Source: Caenorhabditis elegans
Taxonomy: Eukaryota > Nematoda > Chromadorea > Rhabditida > Rhabditidae
Direction: 5' to 3'
NCBI RefSeq assembly: GCF_000002985.6
Contig: NC_003281.10
Span: 8,308,001 to 8,372,000 of the forward strand
Length of the DNA: 64,000 nt
Positions 26,525-47,095 of the stretch are shown here, one piece after another (the first letter of the stretch is position 1; each line of letters begins with the position of its first letter). A program made the position numbers and the translations under genes. Below the pieces are notes generated by a model that worked only from the letters and a program-made list of their open reading frames with translations, was not told where the DNA came from and made no database searches.

Positions 26525-26774
26525 CTGAAAATAAATATTTTAAAAAATACATTTAATTAGGTTCTGAAACTCGCTTTAAAATTGAGAAAATGAAAACGTA
26601 GTAAGAAAGAGCTATCGAGAGCTGAATGAAATAGACTGTGAAATGACGTGGAAATAGTTGTGGATTGCAAAATAGGGACGTAGGTCACGTCAACGTGAAT
26701 ATATATTTTGTTTCAATTCTTTTGTATTTTAATTTCTCACATTTACAAAATTTATATATAATAATTGGCAAGTA
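26525..26774. promoter_or_regulatory. Promoter region of the helical-protein gene
   Basis: AT-rich 5' flank of the minus-strand gene ending at 26524. A short CACGTCAACGTG word lies near 26685. No exon is seen. Confidence 0.35.
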
Positions 26775-27014
26775 GGCACTAGGCACGTAGGCACGTAGGA
26801 ACGTAGGCACGTAGGCACGTAGGCACACAGGCACGTAGGCACGTAGCCACGTAGCCACGTAGGCACGTAGGCACGTAGGCACGTAGGCACGTAGGCACGT
26901 AGGCACGTAGGCACGTAGGCACACAGGCACGTAGGCACGTAGCCACGTAGGCACGTAGCCACGTAGGCACGTAGCCACGTAGGCACGTAGCCACGTAGCC
27001 ACGTAGCCACGTAG
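26775..27014. repeat. 8-bp tandem array (GCACGTAG units)
   Basis: About 30 head-to-tail copies of GCACGTAG, with variants in which the last bases are GCC or the middle reads ACACAG. Three units make 24 bp, so several frames stay open and read Leu-Arg-Ala-Tyr-Val-Pro-Thr-Cys; this is an artefact of the period and not evidence of a gene. The unit matches the GTAGGC words of the dispersed patches elsewhere in the window. Confidence 0.9.
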
Positions 27015-27266
27015 TGGGTTTTTATTCTGAAAAATTCTGAATTTGTGTGAAAGTTAAAGGTGGGGTACCGAAATTTGAGACTTTGCTTTTTTAGACCCAA
27101 AATGGTCCAAAACTACCGAATTTTGTAATGAGACGTTCTGAAAAATTTTCAAAAAAAAGTTATGGCCGCACAAAGTTTTGGAAAAAACGGTCTATTTTTA
27201 GCTAAAATCTCAAATTTTGGCAACTTATCGGTGTCGCAGCGGTTGGAACTTAATTTTTATTTAATT

Positions 27267-27447
27267 ATCATACTTTAATGCATGTTGTGGCATTTTATTA
27301 CGCGTTGTTTCGTTGATTGAGATGGTATGGTTTTTTGGCCAATGGGACGCAAAATTGTATCATATTTGCGTCCCCATTGGCCAAAAAACCATCTCAATCA
27401 ACGAAACAACGCGTAATAAAATGCCAGAACATGCATTAAAGTATGAT
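27267..27447. repeat. Near-perfect 181-bp palindrome (foldback element)
   Basis: The left arm runs from ATCATACTTTAATGCATG through GGCCAATGGGACGCAAA, and the right arm is its reverse complement from TTTGCGTCCCCATTGGCC to CATTAAAGTATGAT. The spacer is about 12 bases, and the left arm has a five-base insertion. Transcripts would form a long hairpin. Confidence 0.9.
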
Positions 27448-27569
27448 CATTACTTATATATAAAAAATAATTCCGTTTGTTCCATAGTTTGTAGTCTATG
27501 TAGACTTTGTAGTCTGTGACGTCACACCCAAAGTCACTGAGAATTGTGGGCGGGGTCTGTCATCCTTCG

Positions 27570-28100
27570 TGGTGAGATCCATCGTGGCGATACCCATCGT
27601 GGCGAGACCCATCGTGGCGAGACCCATCGTGGCGAGACCCATCGTGGTGAGACCCATCGTGGTGAGACCCATCGTGGCGAGACCCACCGTGGTGAGATCC
27701 ATCGTGGCGAGACCCATCGTGGCGAGACCCATCGTGGCGAGACCCATCGTGGCGAGACCCATCGTGGTGAGACCCATCGTGGTGAGACCCATCGTGGCGA
27801 GACCCATCGTGGTGAGACCCATCGTGGTGAGACCCATCGTGGTGAGACCCATCGTGGTGAGACCCATCGTGGTGAGACCCATCGTGGCGAGACCCATCGT
27901 GGCGAGACCCATCGTGGCGAGACCCATCGTGGCGAGACCCATCGTGGCGAGACCCATCGTGGCGAGACCCACCGTGGTGAGACCCATCGTGGCGAGACCC
28001 ATCGTGGCGAGACCCACCGTGGTGAAACCCACCGTGGGGAGACCCGTCGTGGTGAGACGCACCGTGGTAAGACCCATCGTGGTAAGACCCATCGTGGTGA
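27570..28100. repeat. 15-bp minisatellite, about 35 copies
   Basis: Head-to-tail units of ACCCATCGTGGCGAG, with a C/T switch (GGCGAG or GGTGAG) in register and occasional ACCCACC or AGATCC units. The 15-bp period keeps every frame open on both strands (for example Arg-Gly-Glu-Thr-His), so the long open frames are not evidence of genes. The array is strikingly GC-rich in an AT-rich region. Confidence 0.92.
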
Positions 28101-28106
28101 GACCAA

Positions 28107-28325
28107 ATTTTGGCGGGAAATTTAAATTTTCTGTGAAAAATATTTTGGAGGGAAATTTAAATTTTCTGTGAAAAATATTTTGGCGGGAAATTTAAATTTT
28201 CTGTGAAAAATATTTTGGAGGGAAATTTAAATTTTCTGTGAAAAATATTTTGGCGGGAAATTTAAATTTTCTGAAAAAATATTTTGGCGGGAAATTTAAA
28301 TTTTCTGTGAAAAATATTTTTGCGG
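28107..28325. repeat. 35-bp minisatellite, about 6 copies
   Basis: Units of TTTGGCGGGAAATTTAAA followed by TTTTCTGTGAAAAATAT. Alternate units read GGCGGG or GGAGGG, as if a two-unit repeat had been amplified. GGCGGGAAA resembles an E2F/EFL site. The array stops exactly where unc-116 homology begins at 28326. Confidence 0.88.
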
Positions 28326-28399
28326 GAATCTTCTCCCTCGGTGTCTTGATTGGCTTGGCATCGAGCAACAAGTACTCTCATGAACTCCTTTTTCAAATT
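28326..28399 (-). pseudogene. unc-116: 74-bp relic of the unc-116 penultimate exon
   Basis: From GAATCTTCTCCCTCGG to CTTTTTCAAATT, this matches the intact unc-116 exon (44476-44549) and the second relic (36281-36354). On the minus strand it reads [20 protein letters not shown]. It is too short to function. It marks the left breakpoint of the first duplicated unit and implies that a further copy once lay to the left. Confidence 0.88.
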
Positions 28400-28500
28400 T
28401 AGGGAAAATTCTGGAATGTTCCAGAACTTTCTAGAAAAATTGGGAAAAGTCTGGAATGTTCCAGAACTTTCTAGAAAAATTGGGAAAAGTCTGGAAAAAA
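28400..28500. repeat. 40-bp heat-shock-element minisatellite, 2 full units
   Basis: Units start at 28411 and 28451, with a partial unit at 28491. Each unit contains TGGAATGTTCCAGAACTTTC followed by TAGAAA: five contiguous nGAAn modules in alternating orientation, the HSF-1 binding architecture. This is the short allele of the same array found at 36355-36700. Confidence 0.9.
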
Positions 28501-28790
28501 AGAGGTATTGGGTTAGGAGTCGGTGGAGGATAATGTCAAGGTACTGTAGTGGTATTGTAAGGTTACTGTCTTGGTCAAAAAGTAACAGAAAGTTTTCATA
28601 CTGTCTGTGAATTTTTGAAACATGCATGTCGTAGAAAAATACATACATGTAACAGTGCCAGTAAACCGCGTTTTAAGTGTTTCAAGTTTTTTTCATGATG
28701 AGAAATTTTTTGAGTGATCGAAGGTATGTGTGTCAAATACGTTTAATGGTGCCAGTCGTTGCCCGCGCCGTAGGCGCGGTCAGCGGCTGG
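28400..28790 (+). mobile_element. Helitron-like element 3' segment (copy 1)
   Basis: The segment ends with a GC hairpin (CCGCGCC-GTA-GGCGCGG) about 8 bases before CTGG at 28787-28790, followed by T. A short hairpin plus CTRR terminus next to T is the Helitron 3' signature. Carrying HSE tandem repeats is a published feature of C. elegans Helitrons. The 5' TC end is not identified; the HSE array may be its interior, and the element seems truncated by the duplication breakpoint. No Rep/helicase gene is present, so it is nonautonomous. Confidence 0.6.
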
Positions 28791-28852
28791 TACATATATA
28801 TAAATATATTTTGACTTTTATGCAAGAACAGCTATAGCTGAAAAAATCTTAC

Positions 28853-29026
28853 CGTAATTTCAGTTCTATAAGGAATAATTCCGAGGGATGATTTAACATC
28901 ATAGTCAAATTCAATTGAATAAGTAGATGTAACCCATCCAGAAGTAAAAACTCCAACGGTATTCAGAACAAAAGAAACCGATAGAAGAGCTCCGATGAAG
29001 AGCACAAGTTTGTCCAAAGGTAACAT
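28853..29026 (-). pseudogene. Claudin-like gene relic, exon 1 only (copy 1)
   Basis: The 58-codon exon (MLPLDKLVLFIGALLSVSFV ... IIPYRTEIT) ends at an intact GTAAG donor and is a clear paralogue of the first exons of the two genes to the right. No exons 2 or 3 exist: 60 bp beyond the donor on the minus strand lies the Helitron-like 3' end, then the HSE array and unc-116 relic. The gene was truncated before the duplication, because the second copy has the same structure. It is a gene fragment unless spliced to something unexpected. Confidence 0.75.
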
Positions 29027-29503
29027 TTGGAATCAGGCGGCTTTTGCTCTTTCTTCAATGCTTTTTATTTCAATTTTTATCAAATCATTGTTTACTACAA
29101 AATGTTTGGGAATTTCACGGTTATGGCATTGTAAAAAACTAATGGTTTACTCTATTCAAATGTGTGAAAGAATGAGATAAAATATGATCGAACTGTGTTT
29201 GATAAGCAACTCTTCATTCACAATTTCTTCCTCACTTGAAATGAGTTCCATGAAATGTGAATCATAAAATGAAACTTATTTTGTATGGAGGTTTGCGGCC
29301 TGTCAGACCTCAAATGGTTGCAGTTTATTTTAGATTATAGGTACGGGATAAGAACTGTATTCTGATAATATCCAATTAATTATTTTATGAAAGTTCACAC
29401 AGTTATCCGTGATTTCAATTTTTTTCTTTCAATGTTTATTTAAAATTTAAACCCACAGAAATCAAGATTCAATTTTGTATTCTATATCGGAAAAATATAC
29501 TAT

Positions 29504-30631
29504 TCAATAAAAACTGTAAGACATAAAAGCAGAAGCTCCAAAAACACCAATCATCAGAATGGATGAGACTACGCACAGCCAAGCCGAATATCCAAGAGAA
29601 AGTGATTCCGGAGAAAGTTTGAAAAGAATACTATTTAAACCGACTAGATTCACAGCAATTAAAATAACTGAAATTATGGTAAATAAGAAAATTGTGAGTG
29701 ACATTGCCGATAGTGCACCGAATCCTGCTCGTATTGCTGGTTGTAGATCATCTTTACGTGCTTTAAAACTGAAATATTTGGAAATAACCTGGGACTCCGA
29801 ATTTGCCTCTGATTACCAATTTTTATGGGAAAATATATTTTTTTTGTGCACCAACTCACGTACCTATCTTACGCCTATCTCATGCCTATCTACATACATG
29901 CCTACTTTAAGTTTACTCTAGGTTCTGCTTGCTCATCAGATTGTAGATTCTAACCTGTTTTATTACGTCCGCTTTACTACCTCTTACCTTCCTAGGCATC
30001 TAACCTATGAACACCTGCTGCCGTTCTTAAAGTCTGCCTCATGCCTACTAATGTGTCTATTTCATTATTACCCTTATCTTAGAAAACAAATGCTACCTGA
30101 AAAACTAGTGAAACAACAAACCTTAACAATCCATACAGAGGGATAGTCAGAAGAAACAGGACAAATGTCAGGATCATTAGAATTTCAGCGACTCCGAACC
30201 AAGGAAACATAGTCTGAAATAATTCAATTTGGCGAAAGTGAATACACACATTCTTTGAAAAATTCGACTGCATTCGTAATAATCTTTAAAAATTCATTTT
30301 TTAATAATAAAATCTTCAGACCAATCAGAACCTATTTCCGCCCATCTTTCATCCAATCAGAGGAAGTGAGCTGTACCAAGCGTGCTGATTGGTTCCATGT
30401 TTTCATTTCGGTGGGAGTTCAAACAGTCTTTAGGAGACCGTGTTTCTTTTTCAAACTTACCGTGACTTCAGTTCTGTATGGGATAATGCCAAGTGATTTC
30501 ATATTTTGAAACTCAGCATCAACTGTTAGTGGATATTTAGATGTAACCCATTCATTTGTGAATACTCCAACAGCATTCAAAACAAAAGAAAGAGCCAAGA
30601 GAGCTCCGAGAACTATTTTCAAAGCTAACAT
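29504..30631 (-). CDS. Claudin-like (Clc-type) four-TM protein, copy 1
   Basis: Three exons (30461-30631, 30122-30213, 29504-29768) join in phase to 175 residues with four transmembrane helices: ALKIVLGALLALSFVLNAVG, then GVAEILMILTFVLFLLTIPL, AMSLTIFLFTIISVILIAVN and WLCVVSSILMIGVFGASAFM. The first extracellular loop contains NEWVTSKYP and GIIPYRTEV. The length, four-TM topology and W-containing first loop resemble the nematode Clc-like claudin family, PMP22/claudin-type proteins of plasma membrane and junctions. Intron 1 holds CCAATCAGA words and intron 2 a CCTAC repeat patch. Two paralogues flank it, so this is a small local cluster. An identical copy lies 8,195 bp to the right. Confidence 0.78.
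29868..30075. repeat. CCTAC-rich patch in claudin-like intron 2 (copy 1)
   Basis: Loosely repeated GCCTATC/GCCTACT/CTACC words occupy the intron between exons 2 and 3; the same patch is in the second copy at about 38063-38270. It belongs with the dispersed GTAGG/CCTAC family. Confidence 0.5.
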
Positions 30632-30992
30632 CTGAAATCAAATGCGTTTTATTTTTTTGCCTTTTATTCCAATTTTTATCAATCCTTTGTTTAGTTTCAT
30701 ATTTAAAACAACTGCACAATTTTAGCATAATAAAAATTGCAAAGTAAATATATTCTATCCACATAGATGAACTAAAAGATCAAAATGATCAAACTCTATA
30801 AAACAAAGTTTGATAAGAGACATTATTTTAATTCACAACTTTTTCTACAGTGCCAAATCGTTTTGTAATTTTTATTTCTTTATTGATATCTTCAAAATTA
30901 CCGAGATGTTACCTTTCAAAGTGAAGTATTGGGTCAGAAACTAGAAAATATACTGTATGCACATTGAAATGTTTATATAAACAAAAAACGTC

Positions 30993-31730
30993 TTACAAAT
31001 CGTTATTAAATTTTTGAAAATGCCGAATCTTTTTATATGAAAAGTAGAAAGAAGGGATCATCACAGGAATTAGTAAAACAGCTGAAGAAACAGAAAGCCA
31101 TGCAGAATAACCAAGACGAAATGAAGTTGGAGTCAGCAATTGATTCATCATTTGAAGATCCGATCCTATTAAAATAACGGATATAAAAATAAAACAAAAA
31201 ATTAACAGTGAAATTGCTGCAATTATATTAATCCATTTTTGTAGTGATATTGGAAAACCACTTTTGTAGATTTTGACACTGAAAAATATAATTATTCTTA
31301 TGTATTTTCAATAACTTTTGGAGGTGAGCCAGTGGAAAATTTAACTTTTTCAGGCAAAAAGTTATATTTTGATTTTAAAATTGTTGAGAGTACCAAAAAA
31401 TAGTTTCCAAACGTACCTAACAATACCATAAACTGGGAAAATAATTATTAAAAATCCAATTGATATAAACATAAGTACACTTGCAACTCCATACCAAGGA
31501 AATTGACTCTGAAAAGTTTTGAATTTTTGAAGATTCCTAGGAAACTCTCAACCTACTACAAAATCAGTTCTATATGGAACAATTCCAATTGAGCTTGAGC
31601 CATTTAAAACTCCAAAAGTCATTTCTTTTGAAAATACTATCCATTGGGGTGTAAGTACCCCTACTGTGTTCAGAATAAATATTATTGAAATGAGTAAGCC
31701 AATAGAAATAATAATAATTATATTCATCAA
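30993..31730 (-). CDS. Claudin-like (Clc-type) four-TM protein, second paralogue, copy 1
   Basis: Three exons (about 31730-31560, 31509-31418, 31279-30993) join in phase. The four hydrophobic helices are IIIIISIGLLISIIFILN, ASVLMFISIGFLIIIFPVYG, IIAAISLLIFCFIFISVILI and WLSVSSAVLLIPVMIPSFYF, and the first loop has PQWIVFSK and GIVPYRTDF. The plan, the exon borders and the loop motif match the neighbour at 29504, so the genes arose by local duplication. Codon use is markedly more A/T-rich than in the neighbour, giving many Ile residues. A truncated LINE lies just 11 bp upstream of the start codon, where the promoter would be expected. Confidence 0.72.
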
Positions 31731-31740
31731 AGGTTAGAAT

Positions 31741-32362
31741 ATGGAACAGTAGTGTCTTCTCCGACAAAAAAATCGGATGAGAAAGCAATAGAGTCTGTAC
31801 AAAACGCATTCACTAGGCGCCTTTATAGTAGAATCAACAAAAGATATATTAATCCAACTGATAAAGATTACAAAACTGCCATGGAACGTGACGAACTATT
31901 CGACCTCCAAACCTTAAGCACGAGACGTAAAATAATTGACAGAATCCAAGTAATCAGAATGAATACTGGTAAAGTAGACTTAAAAACATCTGAGTTCTTT
32001 GAGCAACAAGAGACCCACACTCGTTCTAAAAAGAAATATATCTGGAGTACAGATAAATCTAAACTTAGGATTCACTTTTTTGTCAACAGAACACTACCCA
32101 CAATGAAGCAACACTAATCTAATGTTACCTTATCCTCACTTCTATCCATCATTTATTCTTGCCTTTTATACATCGATATTTGTGTTTTTTGCTTCTTCTC
32201 CAATGTAGCCATTATTTTCTTCTCATCTCTTTTTTATTTTTGTTTCGTTTTATTTATGTAATTTATTTATGTAACCACTTGTGATGGTTTGTATCTATTA
32301 ATGTGTGTTTTTTTTTCTACCTCACGATATCTTACTATCGTAATAAATTAAATTAAATTAAA
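31741..32362 (+). mobile_element. 5'-truncated LINE fragment (RT C-terminus and 3' UTR), copy 1
   Basis: The coding remnant (about 31752-32117) reads the end of a non-LTR reverse transcriptase ORF: IESVQNAFTRRLYSRINKRY, then LQTLSTRRKIIDRIQVIRM, the conserved FTRR-Y/L-LxTLxxRR region near the C-terminus of CR1/jockey-like ORF2. A 3' UTR follows, ending in a small hairpin (CGATATCTTACTATCG) and reiterated TAAAT units at about 32340-32362. There is no upstream RT or endonuclease, so it is dead on arrival. The tail matches 7400-7547. Confidence 0.78.
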
Positions 32363-32925
32363 ATCAAAGTCTAGAGGTACAGTACTTCAAGTGGTCCAAA
32401 AACCTGAAGATCTTTTTTTGAGGAAACTAGTTTTGAAAGTTTCAGTGCTAGAAAATACACTTTATATCAAAAAACAAATACAAAATGTTTTATTTACTTT
32501 TTCTTAATATTGAACGTATATGATCTATGAACTTTTATTGCTTCAATAACTGAAGGCATCTTCTGCCAATAAAAAAGTTTTATAAAACTGTAAAATTAGA
32601 AGAATTCAGTATTCCAGGGTATAGATTGAAACAGCTTGCCTGCCTAACAGGCGACAAATGACTGTGGCATGCCTACACTCGTTCCCTCTGTAAAAATCCC
32701 GCGTATTGCAATTTTAAAACTAAACGCTTATTTCATTTTACAAAATAAAACGTGAAGGTTCAGTTTTTATATCTGACGTTTGATTGTTGAGGAAATATGA
32801 CAGTCAAACTCTTATTTCAATTATTTCAACTTTATTTTCTGCTCATTTATAGCAGCTTGGAGGTAAGTAATCTTCAAAGATTTTTCAAACGTTTCAGAAT
32901 TTGAATCTGTTTTCAGAACTAACAA

Positions 32926-33743
32926 ATGGGTGATAAAAAATCACCGGTTGCTGTTGGTATGACGGTTCTTCCACCAAATCAAGAAAATTTTGTTGATGCT
33001 GGATCAACTACATTGATGAATAAACCCGGTGAACCGATTTTCAAATTGGCCATTAATCTGACAAAGTAAGTTACTGAGTCTACATTCGAGGCGACATATA
33101 CCTGCCATTTGCCTACTTTCGCCTACTGTCAAAATACACAGTTAATTCACGATGTGCGCATGATGCCTCAGTAAGAATCATTCACATATCGCAATCGAGG
33201 ATCGAGCACATCAAAGCAGCCGTTTGCAAGTGCAGAAAGCAAGCGGCTAACAGGCATGTAGGCAGGCGTAAATCAAGAACGAACTTTAAAAACACATTTT
33301 CAACAGTTCTTGAATAGCTTTGTGTTCATTCCTATAAATTCCTGAATAAGACTCAATCTAATTGTAGGTTGAATTCAAGTGCACAGAAGATCGAAAACCA
33401 ATATCAGTAAACTTGAAGTTGCACAATCCAACGGCTGTAACTGTTTCGTACAAAGTTCGTTGCACGTCTGCAGATATTTTTCGTGTCCAACCTCCACTGG
33501 GATTTGTAAAGCCGAGTGAAACAGTTTCAATTGTGATTTGGTATCAGAATCAAGACAAGAAAGATGCAATCTCAAAGAATCACTATTTCGCTTTTTACCA
33601 TACCAACAGCGATGGAAGAACTGCTCGTGAATTATGGGCAAATTCGAAAGTTGAAGGTTACACTTAAAATTGGAATATCTAGTTTTTAATGTATTATTTC
33701 AGGTGTCCGTCGTCTCCCTGCTTCGTTTTTATCGACTAAGTGA
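32926..33743 (+). CDS. MSP-domain protein, copy 1
   Basis: Exons 32926-33065, 33368-33656 and 33703-33743. Exon 2 holds a major sperm protein-type Ig fold: VNLKLHNPTAVTVSYKVRCT, ADIFRVQPPLGFVKPSETVS, IVIWYQNQDKK; exon 3 ends LPASFLSTK. MSP domains occur in nematode sperm cytoskeletal and signalling proteins and in VAP-type proteins, so sperm expression is likely but not shown. Exon 1 (MGDKKSPVAVGMTVLPPNQE) ends in phase 2 while exon 2 starts in phase 0, so this join breaks frame. A small upstream exon (32797-32862, MTVKLLFQLFQLYFLLIYSS) ends in phase 0 and could join exon 2 directly. The true 5' structure is unresolved. Confidence 0.65.
33075..33260. repeat. CCTAC/GTAGG patch in the MSP gene intron (copy 1)
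   Basis: GCCTACTTTCGCCTACTG and the inverted GGCATGTAGGCAGGCG occur at the two ends of the interval, giving weak foldback potential. The duplicate is at about 41270-41455. Confidence 0.5.
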
Positions 33744-34223
33744 ACTTTGATCGAATGAAAATATTGTCATTTGTCATTTGTATTATTCAACTACATTAAA
33801 TTTAGAGTTTAATGGTGCATGAATCATTTTCCAGGACTCGGCGCGATTTTTTATGGAGGCTGAAGTTCTGTATTAATTTAACAACTGTACTTCTTCTTCA
33901 TTTGAAATATTTTTAAACACTGCCATGCGTTCTAGCACGAGCGAAACTTGTAAGCCACCGTACCAGCACCTACACGAGGTACGGTAACTGAAAACTTTTT
34001 CACGTGCCAGGACCCCGTTCCGGGAGTTTGTTTTGTCGGATTTTTATTATTCTGGTCAATACTCATTTTTTCTCACTTTTTCAAACGCTTTCAAACAAAA
34101 CTAAGAGTTTATTATTGCACACAAATCAATAAAAAATGCGGAAAATGGCATATTGCACCGAACTTGATGAAACCTATTTGTTTATTTTTTTCTCAAATGG
34201 AAATGATCAATTATCGAATGAAT

Positions 34224-34610
34224 CTATTGAGACTTGGACACCATCTTTCCATTCTCCCAAGCAGTGGTCTTCAAGGTGGCTTGGGGCTTCTTCACGTTGG
34301 CGCCTCCCTGTAATTTTTGATAATTTTTGCGATTTTTCATACTTTGATGTGGGACAAAAATGTGTGAACCTTTAGGAGCCCAGTAATTAATTACCGGTAA
34401 TTTTCAGAAACATATTACTTAATTGAAACCTATAGGTTATAACTTGAAAAATGATAAACAGAAAATTAACGGAACGGGTTACTGTACCACTTAAAGGGGC
34501 ATATATTGTTATTTAAGGGTCCAACAAACCTTGGTGCACTGACGAACGACTTGTGCGGCGATTTGTGAATAACGGACGTAGTTGAGTCCAGCAGCTCTCC
34601 AGGCGACCAT
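34224..34610 (-). CDS. ATP synthase F1 epsilon subunit, copy 1
   Basis: Two exons (about 34610-34530 and 34307-34224) encode 54 residues. The N-terminus MVAWRAAGLNYVRYSQIAAQ followed by VVRQCTK matches the mitochondrial ATP synthase epsilon subunit (human ATP5F1E starts with a W, then a GLxYIRYS motif). The second exon reads GGANVKKPQATLKTTAWENG, a nematode-style extension of normal length. The protein sits in the central stalk of F1-ATPase in the mitochondrial matrix and has no cleaved presequence. Both duplicates look intact and identical, so dosage may be doubled. The start is preceded by a short AT-rich leader. Confidence 0.85.
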
Positions 34611-35770
34611 TTTTGATTTTGGGGGAAAGTTATTTAACCTTAATTTATACTATAAAATAATAAAATTTTCAGAAAAAGGAAGTAAATTGAAAGGTATGGA
34701 GAACAACCTTTAGACTAGAGAAATCTGTAAAATAAAAAATAAAAACTTTATACAGTCAAAGTTCAACAGGAAACTTGATAATATTCGAAAGTTACTGAAT
34801 AATAATTAGTTGGTCCAAAATGGAAACAAAACTATCAATAAATATTTAATTACATTAAACTTATTTCTCATAGTTTTCAATGATATTCTCACTCCAGAAC
34901 ACTAATCAGTTAAGCTCATGCGTTTGTTGGTTATTCTTGCTCGTATGTTATTGTAAAATCTTGTTTAAAAAACAGCAAAACGTTTATTTAATAACAGAAA
35001 AAATAATAATTTTATTTACTGGAAGAGCAAAAGATACAAAAAAATGAATTACGCAATTGGGATGTGCGGGGATTTGGGGGCCGAATTGTGCAGAAACGAA
35101 ACAAGTTGATTTCTTATGAAGAATGATAGGGGGATTTAGCAAGCAAGCTTTAAAGACACTCAAACGCATGCAAAAAACAATCATAGGAGTGTTGGTGGGT
35201 GACGGGGGGAAGAACCAGACAAAACCTCGTGTCAGATTAGTAAAACTGAAACAGGAAAATCGTATAGAAACAGACTATTAGAACAAAAAGGCGGAAAAAG
35301 GCAATTTGGGTGGGGGTGGAGGGAAGCTTTAAATACTTTTAGCTTTTGAAGTTTTGTATTCTACATGGAAGACGAGAAGCCAAGGAACGAAATGGGGAGA
35401 CACAACCAACCAAATGAAGATATTTTTGTTGAAACTTCCAGAAGCCGCGTAATTGTATAAGTTACTAGATTTTAAAATAAACAGAAAAGCCCATCGAAAG
35501 TATATCACAAAGCCGGGAAAAGAAGAGAGATAGAGAAGCATTTGAATGTCAGTCTTCAGTGTATTGATTGGATCAAAGAAGACGATGAGTTGATGTTGTT
35601 GTTGGGAGACATTATGCTGAAAAACTTTGATTAGTGAAAAATGGACGGACAAAAGACTGTTAAATTTGATAATACGGTAGGAAGAAAAAGAAACACTCAC
35701 TCTAATTCTAATTCATAGTATAATTACTTGTGAAAAATTACATGAGCACTAAAGAATTTTTTAAAAAATC
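34611..35770. other. Noncoding interval including the unc-116 3' UTR (copy 1)
   Basis: The interval holds the AT-rich upstream region of the epsilon-subunit gene and, next to the unc-116 stop, a long transcribed-looking 3' region with G-rich words (GGGGGATTTGGG-like near 35065-35215, GGGTGGGGGTGGAGGG at 35310). No exon is supported; the open frames here are shadows. Confidence 0.45.
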
Positions 35771-36354
35771 TTAAATTTCTGCAATCAACTGTGAAATAGT
35801 CATTTTTGATGGTATCTGATTGCGAGATGTTGAAGGTGTAGATGTCTGACTAAACACACCGTTTGAGCCATTTGGAGCTCCTTGTGACATTCCTGCTGAC
35901 GGAGACGTATACACTTGTCCTGGACGGATTGGCTTCACAATTTGTGGAGCATTCATTCGTCGCATGTTACGTTGTCGAACAGCTTCCTTGATTCGTTCAA
36001 CTTCTTGTTGATACTTCTTTCGTTCTGCTTGACTACGTTGCTTCGAATCACGAAGAGCAGTTTCTAATATTTTGATGCGATCTTCACGACCACGAAGACG
36101 AGCTTCCATCTTTGGCAGTTCAACGCGCAAATCGGCATTGTCGCGAACAAGCTGAAAATTCAAGTTTTAAGATAATCAAAATGAGAATAAAAACGACAAA
36201 CCTGCTTGTGAACCTTCGTCAACTTGTCCAAATTGTTCTCCAAGAACTGAATTCGTTGCTTTTGAGCTGGTCCACTGAGAGAATCTTCTCCCTCGGTGTC
36301 TTGATTGGCTTGGCATCGAGCAACAAGTACTCTCATGAACTCCTTTTTCAAATT
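35771..36354 (-). pseudogene. unc-116: Truncated unc-116: stalk end and tail (duplicated fragment)
   Basis: Last exon (36151-35771) and the 3' 150 bp of the penultimate exon (36354-36202), with the intron intact. The coding sequence is undamaged and, on my reading, identical to the intact gene, but the motor, neck and most of the stalk are missing. Starting at the ATG whose complement is 36334-36336, it encodes 171 residues: the end of the coiled coil ([13 protein letters not shown]), charged helix, the autoinhibitory IAK-like motif ([10 protein letters not shown]) and the Gly/Ser tail. It is joined at 36355 to an array of heat-shock elements lying upstream on its own strand. It is either an unexpressed fragment or a source of a kinesin tail peptide. 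Confidence 0.88.
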
Positions 36355-36700
36355 TAGGGAAAATTCTGGAATGTTCCAGAACTTTCTAGAAAAATTGGGA
36401 AAAGTCTGGAATGTTCCAGAACTTTCTAGAAAAATTGGGAAAAGTCTGGAATGTTCCAGAACTTTCTAGAAAAATTGAGAAAAGTCTGGAATGTTCCAGA
36501 ACTTTCTAGAAAAATTGGGAAAATTCTGGAATGTTCCAAAACTTTCTAGAAAAATTGGGAAAAGTCTGGAATGTTCCAGAACTTTCTAGAAAAATTGGGA
36601 AAAGTCTGGAATGTTCCAGAACTTTCTAGAAAAATTGGGAAAAGTCTGGAATGTTCCAGAACTTTCTAGAAAAATTGGGAAAAGTCTGGAAAAAAAGAGG
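36355..36700. repeat. 40-bp heat-shock-element minisatellite, 8 full units
   Basis: Units begin at 36366, 36406, 36446, 36486, 36526, 36566, 36606 and 36646, with a partial ninth at 36686. Each unit has GGAAT-GTTCC-AGAAC-TTTCT-AGAAA, five alternating HSE modules without gaps, and then ATTGGGAAAAGT. Two units carry single changes (ATTGAG; TTCCAAAAC). This is the expanded form of the two-unit array at 28400-28500. Confidence 0.92.
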
Positions 36701-36985
36701 TATTGGGTTAGGAGTCGGTGGAGGATAATGTCAAGGTACTGTAGTGGTATTGTAAGGTTACTGTCTTGGTCAAAAAGTAACAGAAAGTTTTCATACTGTC
36801 TGTGAATTTTTGAAACATGCATGTCGTAGAAAAATACATACATGTAGCAGTGCCAGTAAACCGCGTTTTAAGTGTTTCAAGTTTTTTTCATGATGAGAAA
36901 TTTTTTGAGTGATCGAAGGTATGTGTGTCAAATACGTTTAATGGTGCCAGTCGTTGCCCGCGCCGTAGGCGCGGTCAGCGGCTGG
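36355..36985 (+). mobile_element. Helitron-like element 3' segment (copy 2)
   Basis: Same as 28400-28790 but with six more HSE units. The hairpin GCCCGCGCCGTAGGCGCGG and the CTGG end at 36982-36985, followed by T, are conserved. The left border is the unc-116 breakpoint. Confidence 0.6.
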
Positions 36986-37047
36986 TACATATATATAAAT
37001 ATATTTTGACTTTTATGCAAGAACAGCTATAGCTGAAAAAATCTTAC

Positions 37048-37221
37048 CGTAATTTCAGTTCTATAAGGAATAATTCCGAGGGATGATTTAACATCATAGT
37101 CAAATTCAATTGAATAAGTAGATGTAACCCATCCAGAAGTAAAAACTCCAACGGTATTCAGAACAAAAGAAACCGATAGAAGAGCTCCGATGAAGAGCAC
37201 AAGTTTGTCCAAAGGTAACAT
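37048..37221 (-). pseudogene. Claudin-like gene relic, exon 1 only (copy 2)
   Basis: Identical to 28853-29026: one exon with an intact donor and no partner exons on this strand before the Helitron/HSE segment. Its presence in both units shows that the truncation predates the duplication. Confidence 0.75.
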
Positions 37222-37698
37222 TTGGAATCAGGCGGCTTTTGCTCTTTCTTCAATGCTTTTTATTTCAATTTTTATCAAATCATTGTTTACTACAAAATGT
37301 TTGGGAATTTCACGGTTATGGCATTGTAAAAAACTAATGGTTTACTCTATTCAAATGTGTGAAAGAATGAGATAAAATATGATCGAACTGTGTTTGATAA
37401 GCAACTCTTCATTCACAATTTCTTCCTCACTTGAAATGAGTTCCATGAAATGTGAATCATAAAATGAAACTTATTTTGTATGGAGGTTTGCGGCCTGTCA
37501 GACCTCAAATGGTTGCAGTTTATTTTAGATTATAGGTACGGGATAAGAACTGTATTCTGATAATATCCAATTAATTATTTTATGAAAGTTCACACAGTTA
37601 TCCGTGATTTCAATTTTTTTCTTTCAATGTTTATTTAAAATTTAAACCCACAGAAATCAAGATTCAATTTTGTATTCTATATCGGAAAAATATACTAT

Positions 37699-38826
37699 TC
37701 AATAAAAACTGTAAGACATAAAAGCAGAAGCTCCAAAAACACCAATCATCAGAATGGATGAGACTACGCACAGCCAAGCCGAATATCCAAGAGAAAGTGA
37801 TTCCGGAGAAAGTTTGAAAAGAATACTATTTAAACCGACTAGATTCACAGCAATTAAAATAACTGAAATTATGGTAAATAAGAAAATTGTGAGTGACATT
37901 GCCGATAGTGCACCGAATCCTGCTCGTATTGCTGGTTGTAGATCATCTTTACGTGCTTTAAAACTGAAATATTTGGAAATAACCTGGGACTCCGAATTTG
38001 CCTCTGATTACCAATTTTTATGGGAAAATATATTTTTTTTGTGCACCAACTCACGTACCTATCTTACGCCTATCTCATGCCTATCTACATACATGCCTAC
38101 TTTAAGTTTACTCTAGGTTCTGCTTGCTCATCAGATTGTAGATTCTAACCTGTTTTATTACGTCCGCTTTACTACCTCTTACCTTCCTAGGCATCTAACC
38201 TATGAACACCTGCTGCCGTTCTTAAAGTCTGCCTCATGCCTACTAATGTGTCTATTTCATTATTACCCTTATCTTAGAAAACAAATGCTACCTGAAAAAC
38301 TAGTGAAACAACAAACCTTAACAATCCATACAGAGGGATAGTCAGAAGAAACAGGACAAATGTCAGGATCATTAGAATTTCAGCGACTCCGAACCAAGGA
38401 AACATAGTCTGAAATAATTCAATTTGGCGAAAGTGAATACACACATTCTTTGAAAAATTCGACTGCATTCGTAATAATCTTTAAAAATTCATTTTTTAAT
38501 AATAAAATCTTCAGACCAATCAGAACCTATTTCCGCCCATCTTTCATCCAATCAGAGGAAGTGAGCTGTACCAAGCGTGCTGATTGGTTCCATGTTTTCA
38601 TTTCGGTGGGAGTTCAAACAGTCTTTAGGAGACCGTGTTTCTTTTTCAAACTTACCGTGACTTCAGTTCTGTATGGGATAATGCCAAGTGATTTCATATT
38701 TTGAAACTCAGCATCAACTGTTAGTGGATATTTAGATGTAACCCATTCATTTGTGAATACTCCAACAGCATTCAAAACAAAAGAAAGAGCCAAGAGAGCT
38801 CCGAGAACTATTTTCAAAGCTAACAT
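37699..38826 (-). CDS. Claudin-like (Clc-type) four-TM protein, copy 2
   Basis: Duplicate of the gene at 29504-30631. The exons are 38656-38826, 38317-38408 and 37699-37963, with the same reading frame and no visible difference. It has four transmembrane helices and the first-loop motif GIIPYRTEV. Both copies look intact, including splice sites, so both may be expressed. See the first copy for the domain description. Confidence 0.78.
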
Positions 38827-39187
38827 CTGAAATCAAATGCGTTTTATTTTTTTGCCTTTTATTCCAATTTTTATCAATCCTTTGTTTAGTTTCATATTTA
38901 AAACAACTGCACAATTTTAGCATAATAAAAATTGCAAAGTAAATATATTCTATCCACATAGATGAACTAAAAGATCAAAATGATCAAACTCTATAAAACA
39001 AAGTTTGATAAGAGACATTATTTTAATTCACAACTTTTTCTACAGTGCCAAATCGTTTTGTAATTTTTATTTCTTTATTGATATCTTCAAAATTACCGAG
39101 ATGTTACCTTTCAAAGTGAAGTATTGGGTCAGAAACTAGAAAATATACTGTATGCACATTGAAATGTTTATATAAACAAAAAACGTC

Positions 39188-39925
39188 TTACAAATCGTTA
39201 TTAAATTTTTGAAAATGCCGAATCTTTTTATATGAAAAGTAGAAAGAAGGGATCATCACAGGAATTAGTAAAACAGCTGAAGAAACAGAAAGCCATGCAG
39301 AATAACCAAGACGAAATGAAGTTGGAGTCAGCAATTGATTCATCATTTGAAGATCCGATCCTATTAAAATAACGGATATAAAAATAAAACAAAAAATTAA
39401 CAGTGAAATTGCTGCAATTATATTAATCCATTTTTGTAGTGATATTGGAAAACCACTTTTGTAGATTTTGACACTGAAAAATATAATTATTCTTATGTAT
39501 TTTCAATAACTTTTGGAGGTGAGCCAGTGGAAAATTTAACTTTTTCAGGCAAAAAGTTATATTTTGATTTTAAAATTGTTGAGAGTACCAAAAAATAGTT
39601 TCCAAACGTACCTAACAATACCATAAACTGGGAAAATAATTATTAAAAATCCAATTGATATAAACATAAGTACACTTGCAACTCCATACCAAGGAAATTG
39701 ACTCTGAAAAGTTTTGAATTTTTGAAGATTCCTAGGAAACTCTCAACCTACTACAAAATCAGTTCTATATGGAACAATTCCAATTGAGCTTGAGCCATTT
39801 AAAACTCCAAAAGTCATTTCTTTTGAAAATACTATCCATTGGGGTGTAAGTACCCCTACTGTGTTCAGAATAAATATTATTGAAATGAGTAAGCCAATAG
39901 AAATAATAATAATTATATTCATCAA
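39188..39925 (-). CDS. Claudin-like four-TM protein, second paralogue, copy 2
   Basis: Duplicate of the gene at 30993-31730, with exons at about 39925-39755, 39704-39613 and 39474-39188. The four hydrophobic helices and the loop motif GIVPYRTDF are unchanged. The LINE fragment again lies directly upstream of its start. Confidence 0.72.
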
Positions 39926-39935
39926 AGGTTAGAAT

Positions 39936-40557
39936 ATGGAACAGTAGTGTCTTCTCCGACAAAAAAATCGGATGAGAAAGCAATAGAGTCTGTACAAAAC
40001 GCATTCACTAGGCGCCTTTATAGTAGAATCAACAAAAGATATATTAATCCAACTGATAAAGATTACAAAACTGCCATGGAACGTGACGAACTATTCGACC
40101 TCCAAACCTTAAGCACGAGACGTAAAATAATTGACAGAATCCAAGTAATCAGAATGAATACTGGTAAAGTAGACTTAAAAACATCTGAGTTCTTTGAGCA
40201 ACAAGAGACCCACACTCGTTCTAAAAAGAAATATATCTGGAGTACAGATAAATCTAAACTTAGGATTCACTTTTTTGTCAACAGAACACTACCCACAATG
40301 AAGCAACACTAATCTAATGTTACCTTATCCTCACTTCTATCCATCATTTATTCTTGCCTTTTATACATCGATATTTGTGTTTTTTGCTTCTTCTCCAATG
40401 TAGCCATTATTTTCTTCTCATCTCTTTTTTATTTTTGTTTCGTTTTATTTATGTAATTTATTTATGTAACCACTTGTGATGGTTTGTATCTATTAATGTG
40501 TGTTTTTTTTTCTACCTCACGATATCTTACTATCGTAATAAATTAAATTAAATTAAA
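39936..40557 (+). mobile_element. 5'-truncated LINE fragment, copy 2
   Basis: Copy of 31741-32362 carried by the segmental duplication and not by a second retrotransposition, because the flanks are identical too. RT C-terminal remnant, 3' UTR hairpin and TAAAT-type tail are all present. Confidence 0.78.
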
Positions 40558-41120
40558 ATCAAAGTCTAGAGGTACAGTACTTCAAGTGGTCCAAAAACCT
40601 GAAGATCTTTTTTTGAGGAAACTAGTTTTGAAAGTTTCAGTGCTAGAAAATACACTTTATATCAAAAAACAAATACAAAATGTTTTATTTACTTTTTCTT
40701 AATATTGAACGTATATGATCTATGAACTTTTATTGCTTCAATAACTGAAGGCATCTTCTGCCAATAAAAAAGTTTTATAAAACTGTAAAATTAGAAGAAT
40801 TCAGTATTCCAGGGTATAGATTGAAACAGCTTGCCTGCCTAACAGGCGACAAATGACTGTGGCATGCCTACACTCGTTCCCTCTGTAAAAATCCCGCGTA
40901 TTGCAATTTTAAAACTAAACGCTTATTTCATTTTACAAAATAAAACGTGAAGGTTCAGTTTTTATATCTGACGTTTGATTGTTGAGGAAATATGACAGTC
41001 AAACTCTTATTTCAATTATTTCAACTTTATTTTCTGCTCATTTATAGCAGCTTGGAGGTAAGTAATCTTCAAAGATTTTTCAAACGTTTCAGAATTTGAA
41101 TCTGTTTTCAGAACTAACAA

Positions 41121-41938
41121 ATGGGTGATAAAAAATCACCGGTTGCTGTTGGTATGACGGTTCTTCCACCAAATCAAGAAAATTTTGTTGATGCTGGATC
41201 AACTACATTGATGAATAAACCCGGTGAACCGATTTTCAAATTGGCCATTAATCTGACAAAGTAAGTTACTGAGTCTACATTCGAGGCGACATATACCTGC
41301 CATTTGCCTACTTTCGCCTACTGTCAAAATACACAGTTAATTCACGATGTGCGCATGATGCCTCAGTAAGAATCATTCACATATCGCAATCGAGGATCGA
41401 GCACATCAAAGCAGCCGTTTGCAAGTGCAGAAAGCAAGCGGCTAACAGGCATGTAGGCAGGCGTAAATCAAGAACGAACTTTAAAAACACATTTTCAACA
41501 GTTCTTGAATAGCTTTGTGTTCATTCCTATAAATTCCTGAATAAGACTCAATCTAATTGTAGGTTGAATTCAAGTGCACAGAAGATCGAAAACCAATATC
41601 AGTAAACTTGAAGTTGCACAATCCAACGGCTGTAACTGTTTCGTACAAAGTTCGTTGCACGTCTGCAGATATTTTTCGTGTCCAACCTCCACTGGGATTT
41701 GTAAAGCCGAGTGAAACAGTTTCAATTGTGATTTGGTATCAGAATCAAGACAAGAAAGATGCAATCTCAAAGAATCACTATTTCGCTTTTTACCATACCA
41801 ACAGCGATGGAAGAACTGCTCGTGAATTATGGGCAAATTCGAAAGTTGAAGGTTACACTTAAAATTGGAATATCTAGTTTTTAATGTATTATTTCAGGTG
41901 TCCGTCGTCTCCCTGCTTCGTTTTTATCGACTAAGTGA
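41121..41938 (+). CDS. MSP-domain protein, copy 2
   Basis: Duplicate of 32926-33743 with exons 41121-41260, 41563-41851 and 41898-41938. It shows the same phase conflict between the MGDKK exon and the MSP exon, so the conflict is not a private sequencing error in one copy. The alternative upstream exon is at 40992-41057. Confidence 0.65.
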
Positions 41939-42418
41939 ACTTTGATCGAATGAAAATATTGTCATTTGTCATTTGTATTATTCAACTACATTAAATTTAG
42001 AGTTTAATGGTGCATGAATCATTTTCCAGGACTCGGCGCGATTTTTTATGGAGGCTGAAGTTCTGTATTAATTTAACAACTGTACTTCTTCTTCATTTGA
42101 AATATTTTTAAACACTGCCATGCGTTCTAGCACGAGCGAAACTTGTAAGCCACCGTACCAGCACCTACACGAGGTACGGTAACTGAAAACTTTTTCACGT
42201 GCCAGGACCCCGTTCCGGGAGTTTGTTTTGTCGGATTTTTATTATTCTGGTCAATACTCATTTTTTCTCACTTTTTCAAACGCTTTCAAACAAAACTAAG
42301 AGTTTATTATTGCACACAAATCAATAAAAAATGCGGAAAATGGCATATTGCACCGAACTTGATGAAACCTATTTGTTTATTTTTTTCTCAAATGGAAATG
42401 ATCAATTATCGAATGAAT

Positions 42419-42805
42419 CTATTGAGACTTGGACACCATCTTTCCATTCTCCCAAGCAGTGGTCTTCAAGGTGGCTTGGGGCTTCTTCACGTTGGCGCCT
42501 CCCTGTAATTTTTGATAATTTTTGCGATTTTTCATACTTTGATGTGGGACAAAAATGTGTGAACCTTTAGGAGCCCAGTAATTAATTACCGGTAATTTTC
42601 AGAAACATATTACTTAATTGAAACCTATAGGTTATAACTTGAAAAATGATAAACAGAAAATTAACGGAACGGGTTACTGTACCACTTAAAGGGGCATATA
42701 TTGTTATTTAAGGGTCCAACAAACCTTGGTGCACTGACGAACGACTTGTGCGGCGATTTGTGAATAACGGACGTAGTTGAGTCCAGCAGCTCTCCAGGCG
42801 ACCAT
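42419..42805 (-). CDS. ATP synthase F1 epsilon subunit, copy 2
   Basis: Identical duplicate of 34224-34610 (MVAWRAAGLNYVRYSQIAAQ start, stop at 42419). Coding sequence and splice sites are intact. See the first copy for role and motif evidence. Confidence 0.85.
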
Positions 42806-43965
42806 TTTTGATTTTGGGGGAAAGTTATTTAACCTTAATTTATACTATAAAATAATAAAATTTTCAGAAAAAGGAAGTAAATTGAAAGGTATGGAGAACA
42901 ACCTTTAGACTAGAGAAATCTGTAAAATAAAAAATAAAAACTTTATACAGTCAAAGTTCAACAGGAAACTTGATAATATTCGAAAGTTACTGAATAATAA
43001 TTAGTTGGTCCAAAATGGAAACAAAACTATCAATAAATATTTAATTACATTAAACTTATTTCTCATAGTTTTCAATGATATTCTCACTCCAGAACACTAA
43101 TCAGTTAAGCTCATGCGTTTGTTGGTTATTCTTGCTCGTATGTTATTGTAAAATCTTGTTTAAAAAACAGCAAAACGTTTATTTAATAACAGAAAAAATA
43201 ATAATTTTATTTACTGGAAGAGCAAAAGATACAAAAAAATGAATTACGCAATTGGGATGTGCGGGGATTTGGGGGCCGAATTGTGCAGAAACGAAACAAG
43301 TTGATTTCTTATGAAGAATGATAGGGGGATTTAGCAAGCAAGCTTTAAAGACACTCAAACGCATGCAAAAAACAATCATAGGAGTGTTGGTGGGTGACGG
43401 GGGGAAGAACCAGACAAAACCTCGTGTCAGATTAGTAAAACTGAAACAGGAAAATCGTATAGAAACAGACTATTAGAACAAAAAGGCGGAAAAAGGCAAT
43501 TTGGGTGGGGGTGGAGGGAAGCTTTAAATACTTTTAGCTTTTGAAGTTTTGTATTCTACATGGAAGACGAGAAGCCAAGGAACGAAATGGGGAGACACAA
43601 CCAACCAAATGAAGATATTTTTGTTGAAACTTCCAGAAGCCGCGTAATTGTATAAGTTACTAGATTTTAAAATAAACAGAAAAGCCCATCGAAAGTATAT
43701 CACAAAGCCGGGAAAAGAAGAGAGATAGAGAAGCATTTGAATGTCAGTCTTCAGTGTATTGATTGGATCAAAGAAGACGATGAGTTGATGTTGTTGTTGG
43801 GAGACATTATGCTGAAAAACTTTGATTAGTGAAAAATGGACGGACAAAAGACTGTTAAATTTGATAATACGGTAGGAAGAAAAAGAAACACTCACTCTAA
43901 TTCTAATTCATAGTATAATTACTTGTGAAAAATTACATGAGCACTAAAGAATTTTTAAAAAAATC
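42806..43965. other. Noncoding interval including the unc-116 3' UTR (copy 2)
   Basis: Same content as 34611-35770: upstream DNA of the epsilon-subunit gene and the 3' region of the intact unc-116 gene, with G-rich words near 43260-43520. No exon is seen. Confidence 0.45.
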
Positions 43966-46900
43966 TTAAATTTCTGCAATCAACTGTGAAATAGTCATTT
44001 TTGATGGTATCTGATTGCGAGATGTTGAAGGTGTAGATGTCTGACTAAACACACCGTTTGAGCCATTTGGAGCTCCTTGTGACATTCCTGCTGACGGAGA
44101 CGTATACACTTGTCCTGGACGGATTGGCTTCACAATTTGTGGAGCATTCATTCGTCGCATGTTACGTTGTCGAACAGCTTCCTTGATTCGTTCAACTTCT
44201 TGTTGATACTTCTTTCGTTCTGCTTGACTACGTTGCTTCGAATCACGAAGAGCAGTTTCTAATATTTTGATGCGATCTTCACGACCACGAAGACGAGCTT
44301 CCATCTTTGGCAGTTCAACGCGCAAATCGGCATTGTCGCGAACAAGCTGAAAATTCAAGTTTTAAGATAATCAAAATGAGAATAAAAACGACAAACCTGC
44401 TTGTGAACCTTCGTCAACTTGTCCAAATTGTTCTCCAAGAACTGAATTCGTTGCTTTTGAGCTGGTCCACTGAGAGAATCTTCTCCCTCGGTGTCTTGAT
44501 TGGCTTGGCATCGAGCAACAAGTACTCTCATGAACTCCTTTTTCAAATTCTTCAACGTTGTAAGCTCCATATTGACACGATCTGTTAGTGGCTTGATCTC
44601 CTTTGCCGCCTGATCCTTCACCAGCAATTGTTTCATTCTACCCGCGTCTTGACCAGATTCAACACGAGCAACATCAGCTGCAAGTTTCGCTTCAGCATCA
44701 TGCTCGGCAGCTGTACTGCTCTCTTTCGCAGCAGAGTATTCTGAGAAGAGTTTTGAAACTCCGATTCTGACATGGTTCAGAAGATCGTGATCAGGAAGTT
44801 GATCATTTTGAGAGGCAATGTCAGCAATGTTGAATTCACGAATAACATTGTAGATTCCTTCTTTGAAATGACGGATTTTTGGACCACATTCGTCAAGATG
44901 AGCATTGAGGAGTGATGTTGCTTGGTTCATTCGATCTTCCAAACTCTGGTTATCTTCTTGAACAACTTCCAACTCTCTCTTCAATTTTTCGCATTCTGCT
45001 TGTCGAACATCCAAGTTGACAGCAATCTCTTCCAGAGCTGTCATCATTTCCTTTCCTTCTTGCTGCTTGTCTTCAGCTTCTTTTTGGAATCGGTTGTTCT
45101 CTTCACGGATCAGCTCCTCGTTTTCACGCATAGTTCCCAAAGCTTCTTCTTGGAGAAGAACTTGTTGTCTAAGCTTCTCAAGCTCTTGCGAAACTTTTTG
45201 AATCTCATCATCTTTCTCGTCGAGTTGCTGATACAGTTTGACACGTTCCTCTTCGTACTTCTTCTTCTCTTCGTCAGTGATCGGGCCAGTTGTAGAAGTT
45301 AGCATTGGAGGAGCTGGAGCAATCGAACGTTCCATGAGTGGAGTCGACCCACCAGAAACTTCCGACACAGCCATTTGAGCAGAATCTGATAGATTGACCC
45401 ATTCAACCTCAGACACTGATTCTCCAGCACGCCAGCGTGAAAGTTCCAAAGCCGCTGCCTGGAGAAGGGCGGCCAATCGAGTATTCTTCTCTTTTTCTTT
45501 CTCATATCGCCGTTTCCATTCTTCTGCTGTGAGCTCTTCGTTGATTTGTACAACATTCTTGATAGTCTTCGCACGTGCTCCGAACAAAAGTGTGGATTTA
45601 GTTTCAGCTTCGTTGAAATGTGACGGAGAAGCACAAATAATAACTGTAGTACGGGAATTTCCTCCTAGAGATTCTTGAAGAATACGAGTCAGTTTGGAAT
45701 CACGATATGGAACATGAGATTTCTGAAATAAATATTCGTTTTAAGAAGGTCATAATTTAAACAACTCACAGTTCCTTCAGCCAATGCTGAAATAACTATT
45801 CCGAGTGCAGTAAGTGACTTGTTGATGTTTTTGGCTTCTTCTAAAACTGTTCCTTGAGCTCCAGTTTTGCTCACTTTCTCAGAACCAGCCAAATCAACAA
45901 GATAAAGCTTTCCGGTGAGCTGTTTCTTTGTTGTCTGATGTTCTTGTTTCACAGTAATCAAGAAGACGGAATGAGATCGAGAAGAATGTTCGTTCATGTC
46001 TGAAATTTCGTTCACATGTTAATTTGTTTAATTTTAAGTTTACTCACTCGTAACTGCAACCATTCTGTTGGATTTTCCATCTTCGATTGCCTGAAGAACC
46101 TCATCGGGTCCTCCAACAAACCGTTCGGTGGCTCCCTTCACGTATGGCACTCGATTTTTATCTTCATGAATGGACAAATTGACCTTCTCGGGGTCTAATA
46201 AATCTCGAATCTTCTCGTTGTAAATTTCATAATAGGACACTTTGATGTGAAATTGAAGATTCTCGTCCATACTATAAATGTGGTTAAAGATGTCAGCAAC
46301 GATACGTGGAATGATTCCCGACAAGCCATTATCACCGATTACTCCCTGTAAAAAATATGAAAATAATTAAATTATATTGTTAATTTCATCGAGCGCCGAA
46401 TATTTTAAACGTAAAAATTATCAAAAATCTTTCGGGCATTCGATTTCGGAAATAACTGCTGAAAATTAGTTCTCAAACTTTTCTTTTCATTAATCAGTAA
46501 AGATTTGCACTGTTGATATTACAACTTGATTGTCTTTGTCGCATTCTACGTAATTATCAAGGTTTTCATAATTCCTACCTCCATTGTATGTGTTTTTCCG
46601 GAAGATGTTTGTCCATATGCAAAAACTGTTCCATTATAACCGGATAATACATCCTGTACGATGTGATAAGCGGCTCCTTTGTACACTTGCTCTTGCGTGG
46701 TGTTCGGCTTGAACACTTTATCGAACACGTATACTTTTCCCTGAAAAATTCCAACAAATCAATCGATATATATATATATATTCAACTTTGCACTTTTCGT
46801 GTACTTTTCAAACAGATGAATGTGTCATGTGAGAGAATTGACACACCTGCATCCCCCGTGCTTCCCGTCCCTGTTGACATAATTGTTCCCTATGACCCCT

Positions 46901-47095
46901 TTGTATTACTCACCCCAAGCGATATACTGTCCTCGGAAGGGAATTTGGGCAGGAAACGGTCCGCATTCTTCTCCTCGGTCTTATTGAGCGGCCGAATACG
47001 ACAAAATACCTGAAAACAATATGAAATTGGAAAATCTAGGCGGGGAAAATTAATACCTGGACACCGCATTCTGCTCCGTCTGTCCGCGGCTCCAT
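43966..47095 (-). CDS. unc-116: Kinesin-1 heavy chain UNC-116
   Basis: Seven exons from ATG at 47095 to TAA at 43966, about 815 residues, a full-length kinesin-1 heavy chain. Motor domain: [11 protein letters not shown]-loop GQTSSGKT with [10 protein letters not shown], switch I NEHSSRSH, switch II VDLAGSE, and [17 protein letters not shown]. The long exon at about 44399-45726 encodes the neck and coiled-coil stalk. The last exon carries the tail with the IAK-like autoinhibitory motif [13 protein letters not shown]-116 works with kinesin light chains as a plus-end motor for axonal cargo, nuclear migration and meiotic spindle positioning. The first exon follows a TTTTCAG acceptor. Its last two exons are duplicated at 35771-36354, but this copy is complete. 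Confidence 0.95.

Follow-up and report, generated by a model that had tools for sequence, protein, structure and literature searches.

An array of heat-shock elements in a Helitron-like element abuts a headless kinesin-1 fragment at a tandem duplication junction in Caenorhabditis elegans

Heat-shock elements (HSEs) carried by Helitrons in C. elegans bind HSF-1 and gain RNA polymerase II (Pol II) on heat shock, and they are enriched near heat-induced genes (Garrigues et al., 2019, PMC6927752). In that study, 556 HSF-1 summits on heat shock hold Helitron HSEs, with HSF-1 and Pol II generally higher there, and 60 induced genes are located at most 2.5 kb downstream of a bound Helitron HSE, compared to a background of 13. 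The contrast between 556 summits and only 60 induced genes suggests that a site of this type often does not induce any annotated gene nearby. The same study (PMC6927752) also describes repressive marks close to Helitrons, and the RNA of Helitron1_CE is up-regulated on heat shock and sensitive to the HSF-1 level (PMC6765114). Partial copies made up 21% and 63% of the new C. elegans duplicates in two studies covered by a review (PMC3449122). An HSE-bearing Helitron and a partial gene duplicate are each of a kind already known (PMC6927752, PMC3449122).

Here we describe a locus at which the two meet, in a stretch of 64,000 nucleotides of C. elegans DNA (the window; all positions refer to it). The window contains a kinesin-1 heavy chain gene, which we take to be unc-116, and a second copy of its 3′ part with an HSE array directly upstream.

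An 8-kb tandem duplication with one end in unc-116

An 8-kb sequence is present in two nearly perfect tandem copies, and the kinesin fragment lies at one end of this duplication. The features concerned are:

28326 to 36354, no strand assigned: copy 1 of the tandem duplication (self-BLAST and MAFFT; Pfam Claudin_3 and MSP)
36281 to 44549, no strand assigned: copy 2, the right end of which is inside a native unc-116 exon
35771 to 36336, minus strand: headless unc-116 fragment, 171 codons plus stop (spliced ORF; match to a solved kinesin-1 heavy chain)
43966 to 47095, minus strand: native unc-116 (kinesin-1 heavy chain), apparently intact (Pfam kinesin motor; exon frames by eye)

Copy 1 comprises a 74-bp stretch of kinesin exon, a short HSE array, a Helitron-like 3′ end, claudin-like genes, a gene with an MSP domain and the 3′ part of unc-116. 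Comparison of the 8-kb copies with self-BLAST and MAFFT revealed two substitutions and one 240-bp indel, which corresponds to six units of the array. One substitution (28652/36847) is located in the Helitron-like part, the other (35762/43957) just beyond the unc-116 stop codon, where it could help to separate the 3′ ends of fragment transcripts from the native ones. Outside of the array the divergence is approximately 0.00025 substitutions per site, which points to a recent event or to later gene conversion. The coding sequence of the fragment shows no difference to the native one; with two substitutions in 8 kb and none in this coding sequence there is no sign of selection or decay. The breakpoint of the duplication is in the second-last exon of unc-116, thus the extra copy begins mid-exon, right after the HSE array. 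As a near-identical copy of part of its neighbour, the intactness of which was read by eye, the fragment is a partial gene duplicate.

False duplication in the assembly was considered as well and rejected, if not with certainty, since the copies differ by 240 bp and two substitutions and since the 74-bp stretch occurs with three different pairs of neighbours.

The fragment had been annotated in a first pass as an open, splice-competent 3′ part of unc-116 with its own ATG at the complement of 36334-36336, encoding a stalk and tail peptide of 171 residues with the autoinhibitory motif but no motor, and this description was confirmed. On the minus strand, the in-frame ATG (36336-36334) opens an exon (36336-36202) that is followed by a 50-bp GT..AG intron (36201-36152) and the last exon (36151-35771, the stop ending at 35771); ORF, donor, acceptor and stop are all intact. 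The spliced product of 171 residues is identical to the native unc-116 tail and matched three distinct PDB sequences. In the alignment with a solved kinesin-1 heavy chain (E 1.9e-40) its residues 4-155 correspond to 807-956, and its IAK-type motif is found opposite QIAKPIRPGQ in solved chains of this type. By sequence relation and motif the fragment is a kinesin-1 tail that lacks the motor and almost the entire stalk. Its ATG has a T at −3 (TTCATG).

For the native gene, the ATG at 47095 and the exon frames were judged by eye and not spliced by script; Pfam located the kinesin motor domain in the minus-strand frames 46043-46366 and 44358-45740. A long imperfect palindrome (47881-48174, 72% identity to its own reverse complement) is found upstream of its start. 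Pfam Claudin_3 genes and a frame with an MSP domain are located in the duplicated region, and a RING-finger frame to the right. A minus-strand frame near 34613 beginning MVAWRAAGLNYVRYSQIAAQVVRQCTKV presumably encodes ATP synthase epsilon. The open frame at 31698-32114, repeated 8195 bp to the right in copy 2, resembles a LINE reverse transcriptase at its C-terminal end, and the sequence after it (32221-32362) is also present at 7396-7541 with 95% identity. Scans of the window with Rfam and with ARAGORN (bacterial code) yielded no hits.

The HSE array, its Helitron-like surroundings and the junctions

Both copies of the duplication carry an array of 40-bp units:

36357 to 36691, no strand assigned: copy-2 HSE array, 40 bp × 8.4 (TRF and module runs)
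28402 to 28496, no strand assigned: copy-1 HSE array, 40 bp × 2.4 (TRF and module runs)

For the copy-2 array TRF reported a period of 40, 8.4 copies and 97% matches. HSEs were scanned for as contiguous alternating GAA/TTC modules with 5-bp spacing, at least three modules counting as a run. Eight uninterrupted runs of 7, 5, 5, 5, 4, 5, 5 and 5 modules were identified in the copy-2 array, so that the eight HSE units of the first-pass annotation stand while its total of 40 modules becomes 41. The run nearest to the kinesin fragment is the one with seven modules, and the array ends 20 bp from the ATG of the fragment, in agreement with the distance of less than 30 bp given earlier. Altogether, the 64-kb window contains 20 runs of at least three modules: eight in the copy-2 array, two in the copy-1 array (28404-28476) and ten isolated 3-module runs. 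One hundred first-order Markov sequences of the same length had on average 2.27 such runs (maximum 7), and runs of at least five modules were found in none of them. With eight runs of four to seven modules in the array, a chance origin of the HSEs was rejected on this comparison.

Since at least three contacting inverted nGAAn modules make up an HSE that HSF-1 is predicted to bind, all eight runs are candidate binding sites. The common pentamer of the array and the pentamer of the F44E5.4 promoter probe published in PMC9148306 share 20 of 23 bases by visual count, including all 15 module bases; F44E5.4 is described there as being among the most strongly heat-induced genes. The minus strand of the copy-2 array also holds eight TTTTTCTAG sites, which might act as splice or trans-splice acceptors, and the first ATG downstream of the last of these is that of the fragment. 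The 29-base core of the 40-bp unit had no exact match in viral contigs.

Helitrons end at the 3′ side with a hairpin located 10-12 nt before a CTRR, which is followed by a T. A terminus of this form was found approximately 290 bp from the HSE array, with minisatellites at the other side of copy 1:

36958 to 36985, plus strand: Helitron-like 3′ terminus, with a hairpin at 36958-36974 (17 nt), TCAGCGG and CTGG at 36982-36985, then T
27567 to 28328, no strand assigned: minisatellites with units of 15 bp and 35 bp, left of copy 1 (TRF)

The distance from the hairpin to the end is 11 nt, and CTGG and T follow the rule. The same hairpin is present in copy 1 at 28763, and copy 2 of the element is cut at the junction 36354/36355. 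The HSE array belongs to the 3′ part of this Helitron-like element, and we infer that the minisatellites at 27567-28328 are more of the same element. Just left of the 15-bp minisatellite, an inverted repeat (27262-27452) matches its own reverse complement to 88%; it is possibly a separate foldback element, possibly part of the Helitron-like element. A tandem array of 31 copies of the 8-bp GGCACGTA is located left of the Helitron-like element at 26767-27014.

The joins between kinesin exon and element contain two further features:

28326 to 28399, minus strand: 74-bp unc-116 exon stretch (proposed capture), between the 35-bp minisatellite and the HSE array
36355 to 36356, no strand assigned: TA filler of 2 bp at the exon/array junction (sequence read by eye)

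The 74-bp stretch occurs three times in identical form, at 28326-28399, 36281-36354 and 44476-44549, the last being the part of the native unc-116 exon that is common to the fragment. On the right side, the stretches at 28326 and 36281 are followed by the TA and the array, and the stretch at 44476 by the rest of the kinesin gene. On the left side, the stretches at 36281 and 44476 are flanked by the remainder of the kinesin tail, and the stretch at 28326 borders on the 35-bp minisatellite. Read by eye, both joins show microhomology: at the right join the exon stretch and the 40-bp unit both terminate in AAATT, and at the left join GAA is common to both sides. The ATG of the fragment recurs in the copy-1 stretch, and the frame it opens there stops after 39 residues in the minisatellite.

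The junction 36354/36355 had been taken as unique, which did not hold: it occurs twice, inside 171 bp (28326-28496 and 36281-36451) that are identical between the copies. Since the exon/array junction is also present in copy 1, transcript read-out over 36354/36355 is ambiguous; position 36355 separates fragment reads from the native gene and position 36280 separates the fragment from copy 1. Short-read expression or ChIP data at this locus need care, whether the fragment is transcribed or silent, because its exons are identical to the native ones and the junction is present twice. At the protein level the fragment would depart from native UNC-116 solely at the N-terminus, where trypsin would cleave behind MR, so that routine peptide proteomics would not tell the two apart.

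The simplest of several histories that fit would be a capture followed by an unequal crossover. In the first step, 74 bp of the unc-116 exon would have been copied into the Helitron-like element between its two minisatellites, as filler DNA joined through 3-5 bp of microhomology. In the second step, an unequal crossover between the captured 74 bp and the native exon would have generated the tandem duplication and set the array against the last one and a half exons of unc-116. The TA junction is identical in both copies, which suggests one event that was copied later. This identity would equally be explained if the 8-kb unit had been triplicated and the first copy then mostly lost, or if it had been inserted from a circle, but such histories require larger or additional steps, and the 74 bp are located exactly between two minisatellites, as a filler-DNA capture would leave them. 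We regard these other origins as somewhat unlikely; they concern the origin only and do not compete with the functional readings discussed below.

Possible transcripts and products of the fragment

Since published Helitron HSEs bind HSF-1, heat-induced transcription at this locus is plausible. The reading we favour, as the somewhat more probable one, is that part of a gene was recently duplicated and that the broken end of the copy carries a heat-shock enhancer brought by a transposon; RNA of the tail would then mostly be a weak by-product. On heat shock HSF-1 would bind to the array, and Pol II would initiate inefficiently within the array or next to it, with transcription running both ways. 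In the minus-strand RNA the native intron could be spliced and the end could be set by the duplicated 3′ region. Such an RNA could encode the 171-residue tail, and for the most part a weak, heat-induced by-product is to be expected.

No TATA-like motif (TATAWA) is present on the minus strand between the ATG of the fragment and 36995-36997. A start site would therefore have to be in the array or far upstream. Taking the data on Helitron HSEs together with the array 20 bp from the ATG, the missing TATAWA and the acceptors in the array, we put the chances of a weak heat-induced minus-strand RNA at about even. A functional kinesin-tail peptide would be much less likely than this RNA. The first-pass proposal of a headless kinesin driven by the array thus keeps its geometry, ORF, splice sites and very strong HSE set, but not the unique junction by which it was to be followed, and a heat-inducible kinesin tail arising from the arrangement of array and fragment is possible.

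The proposal went further, to a stable tail of 171 residues made under HSF-1 during stress that would bind cargo or inhibit kinesin-1 in heat shock. An ORF identical to the native tail with its IAK-type motif, the alignment with a solved kinesin-1 heavy chain (its residues 807-956) and a strong HSE array at 20 bp would all be compatible with such a product, but its ATG has the T at −3, it lacks the motor and almost the whole stalk, two differences in 8 kb leave no trace of selection, and no paper combining unc-116, hsf-1, heat shock and RNA-seq was found in the literature searched. We consider such a stable tail quite improbable.

Splicing from a neighbouring gene might yield a different product:

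37048 to 37221, minus strand: first exon of a claudin-like gene, 58 codons (Pfam Claudin_3; phase-0 donor)

This gene is truncated where it faces the Helitron-like element, and its phase-0 donor is in frame with the last exon of unc-116. Exon 1 (37221-37048) could be spliced over the Helitron-like element to this last exon (acceptor 36151), and the array would then be an intronic enhancer. With a phase-0 donor (GTAAG) and a phase-0 acceptor (TTTTCAG), the fusion ORF stays open for 184 codons, but such an agreement in frame arises by chance in approximately one third of cases. In addition, the first membrane segment of the claudin would, on the topology we assume, carry the kinesin tail out of the cytosol, so that the fusion would hardly touch kinesin. 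This chimera is in our view very unlikely. A tblastn search of the window with only the first- and last-exon frames of the paralogues as queries found nothing convincing to the left of exon 1 of copy 1. Splicing of claudin exon 1 to the acceptors in the array was rejected where the frames are short: six of the eight are only 82-98 long and one is 130 (lengths include the stop symbol). Acceptor 36465 gives a frame of 273 (stop symbol counted) that ends in the kinesin tail, and a splice to this acceptor is possible.

The locus might also be inert, either as a silent duplicate beside a silenced transposon remnant or with only a non-coding heat-induced RNA. Repressive marks near Helitrons (PMC6927752) would be in line with silencing, and partial copies are common among new C. 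elegans duplicates (PMC3449122); on the other hand, the density and quality of the HSEs here are of the kind that HSF-1 is reported to bind (PMC6927752). We consider inertness a real possibility, if a less than even one. The most far-reaching reading is that Helitron enhancers, together with a captured shred serving as crossover point, made a heat-inducible gene, a stress-switched kinesin-1 inhibitor, in two ordinary steps; we give it little chance.

Comparison with known systems

Transcription of the fragment on heat shock would make it a very young example of a transposon that provides a new gene piece with its promoter as well as its recombination point, and the unbroken parent gene next to it could serve as control. 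A silent fragment would simply be an ordinary partial duplicate next to a Helitron. In the literature searched, no paper describes this locus (HSF-1 peak lists in supplementary files being outside the scope of the search), an unc-116 duplication or a heat response of unc-116, a search on the kinesin tail likewise found nothing, and unc-116 and Helitron are mentioned jointly only through the name of a co-expression group. The main text of PMC6927752 does not mention unc-116, and the text of PMC12239620 available to us has nothing bearing on the unc-116 duplication locus.

The proposed first step is related to gene capture by Helitrons. Helitrons are able to capture pieces of genes, and the short piece of exon found here, which lies in a Helitron-like element with a minisatellite on either side, is alike in this respect; however, only 74 bp are concerned, and they come from a gene 8 kb away. 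Truncated headless kinesin heavy-chain constructs consist of the tail with the IAK-type motif and lack the motor. In contrast to such constructs, the piece described here is a natural genomic fragment.

The partial and chimeric duplicates of C. elegans described in PMC3449122 are likewise recent, with a breakpoint inside a gene and a partial copy beside an intact one. The unc-116 fragment differs from them in that its new 5′ sequence is an enhancer array and in that the breakpoint is located in a 74-bp stretch that is also found inside a transposon. With the Helitron-acquired HSEs of Caenorhabditis (Garrigues et al., 2019, PMC6927752) the locus shares tandem HSEs inside a Helitron beside genes. 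Those elements are able to recruit HSF-1 and Pol II, and the same is predicted for the array here. In examples from that study such as col-88, col-52 and nhr-247 the array is located upstream of an annotated gene, whereas here it abuts, through a duplication junction, a gene that is broken mid-exon.
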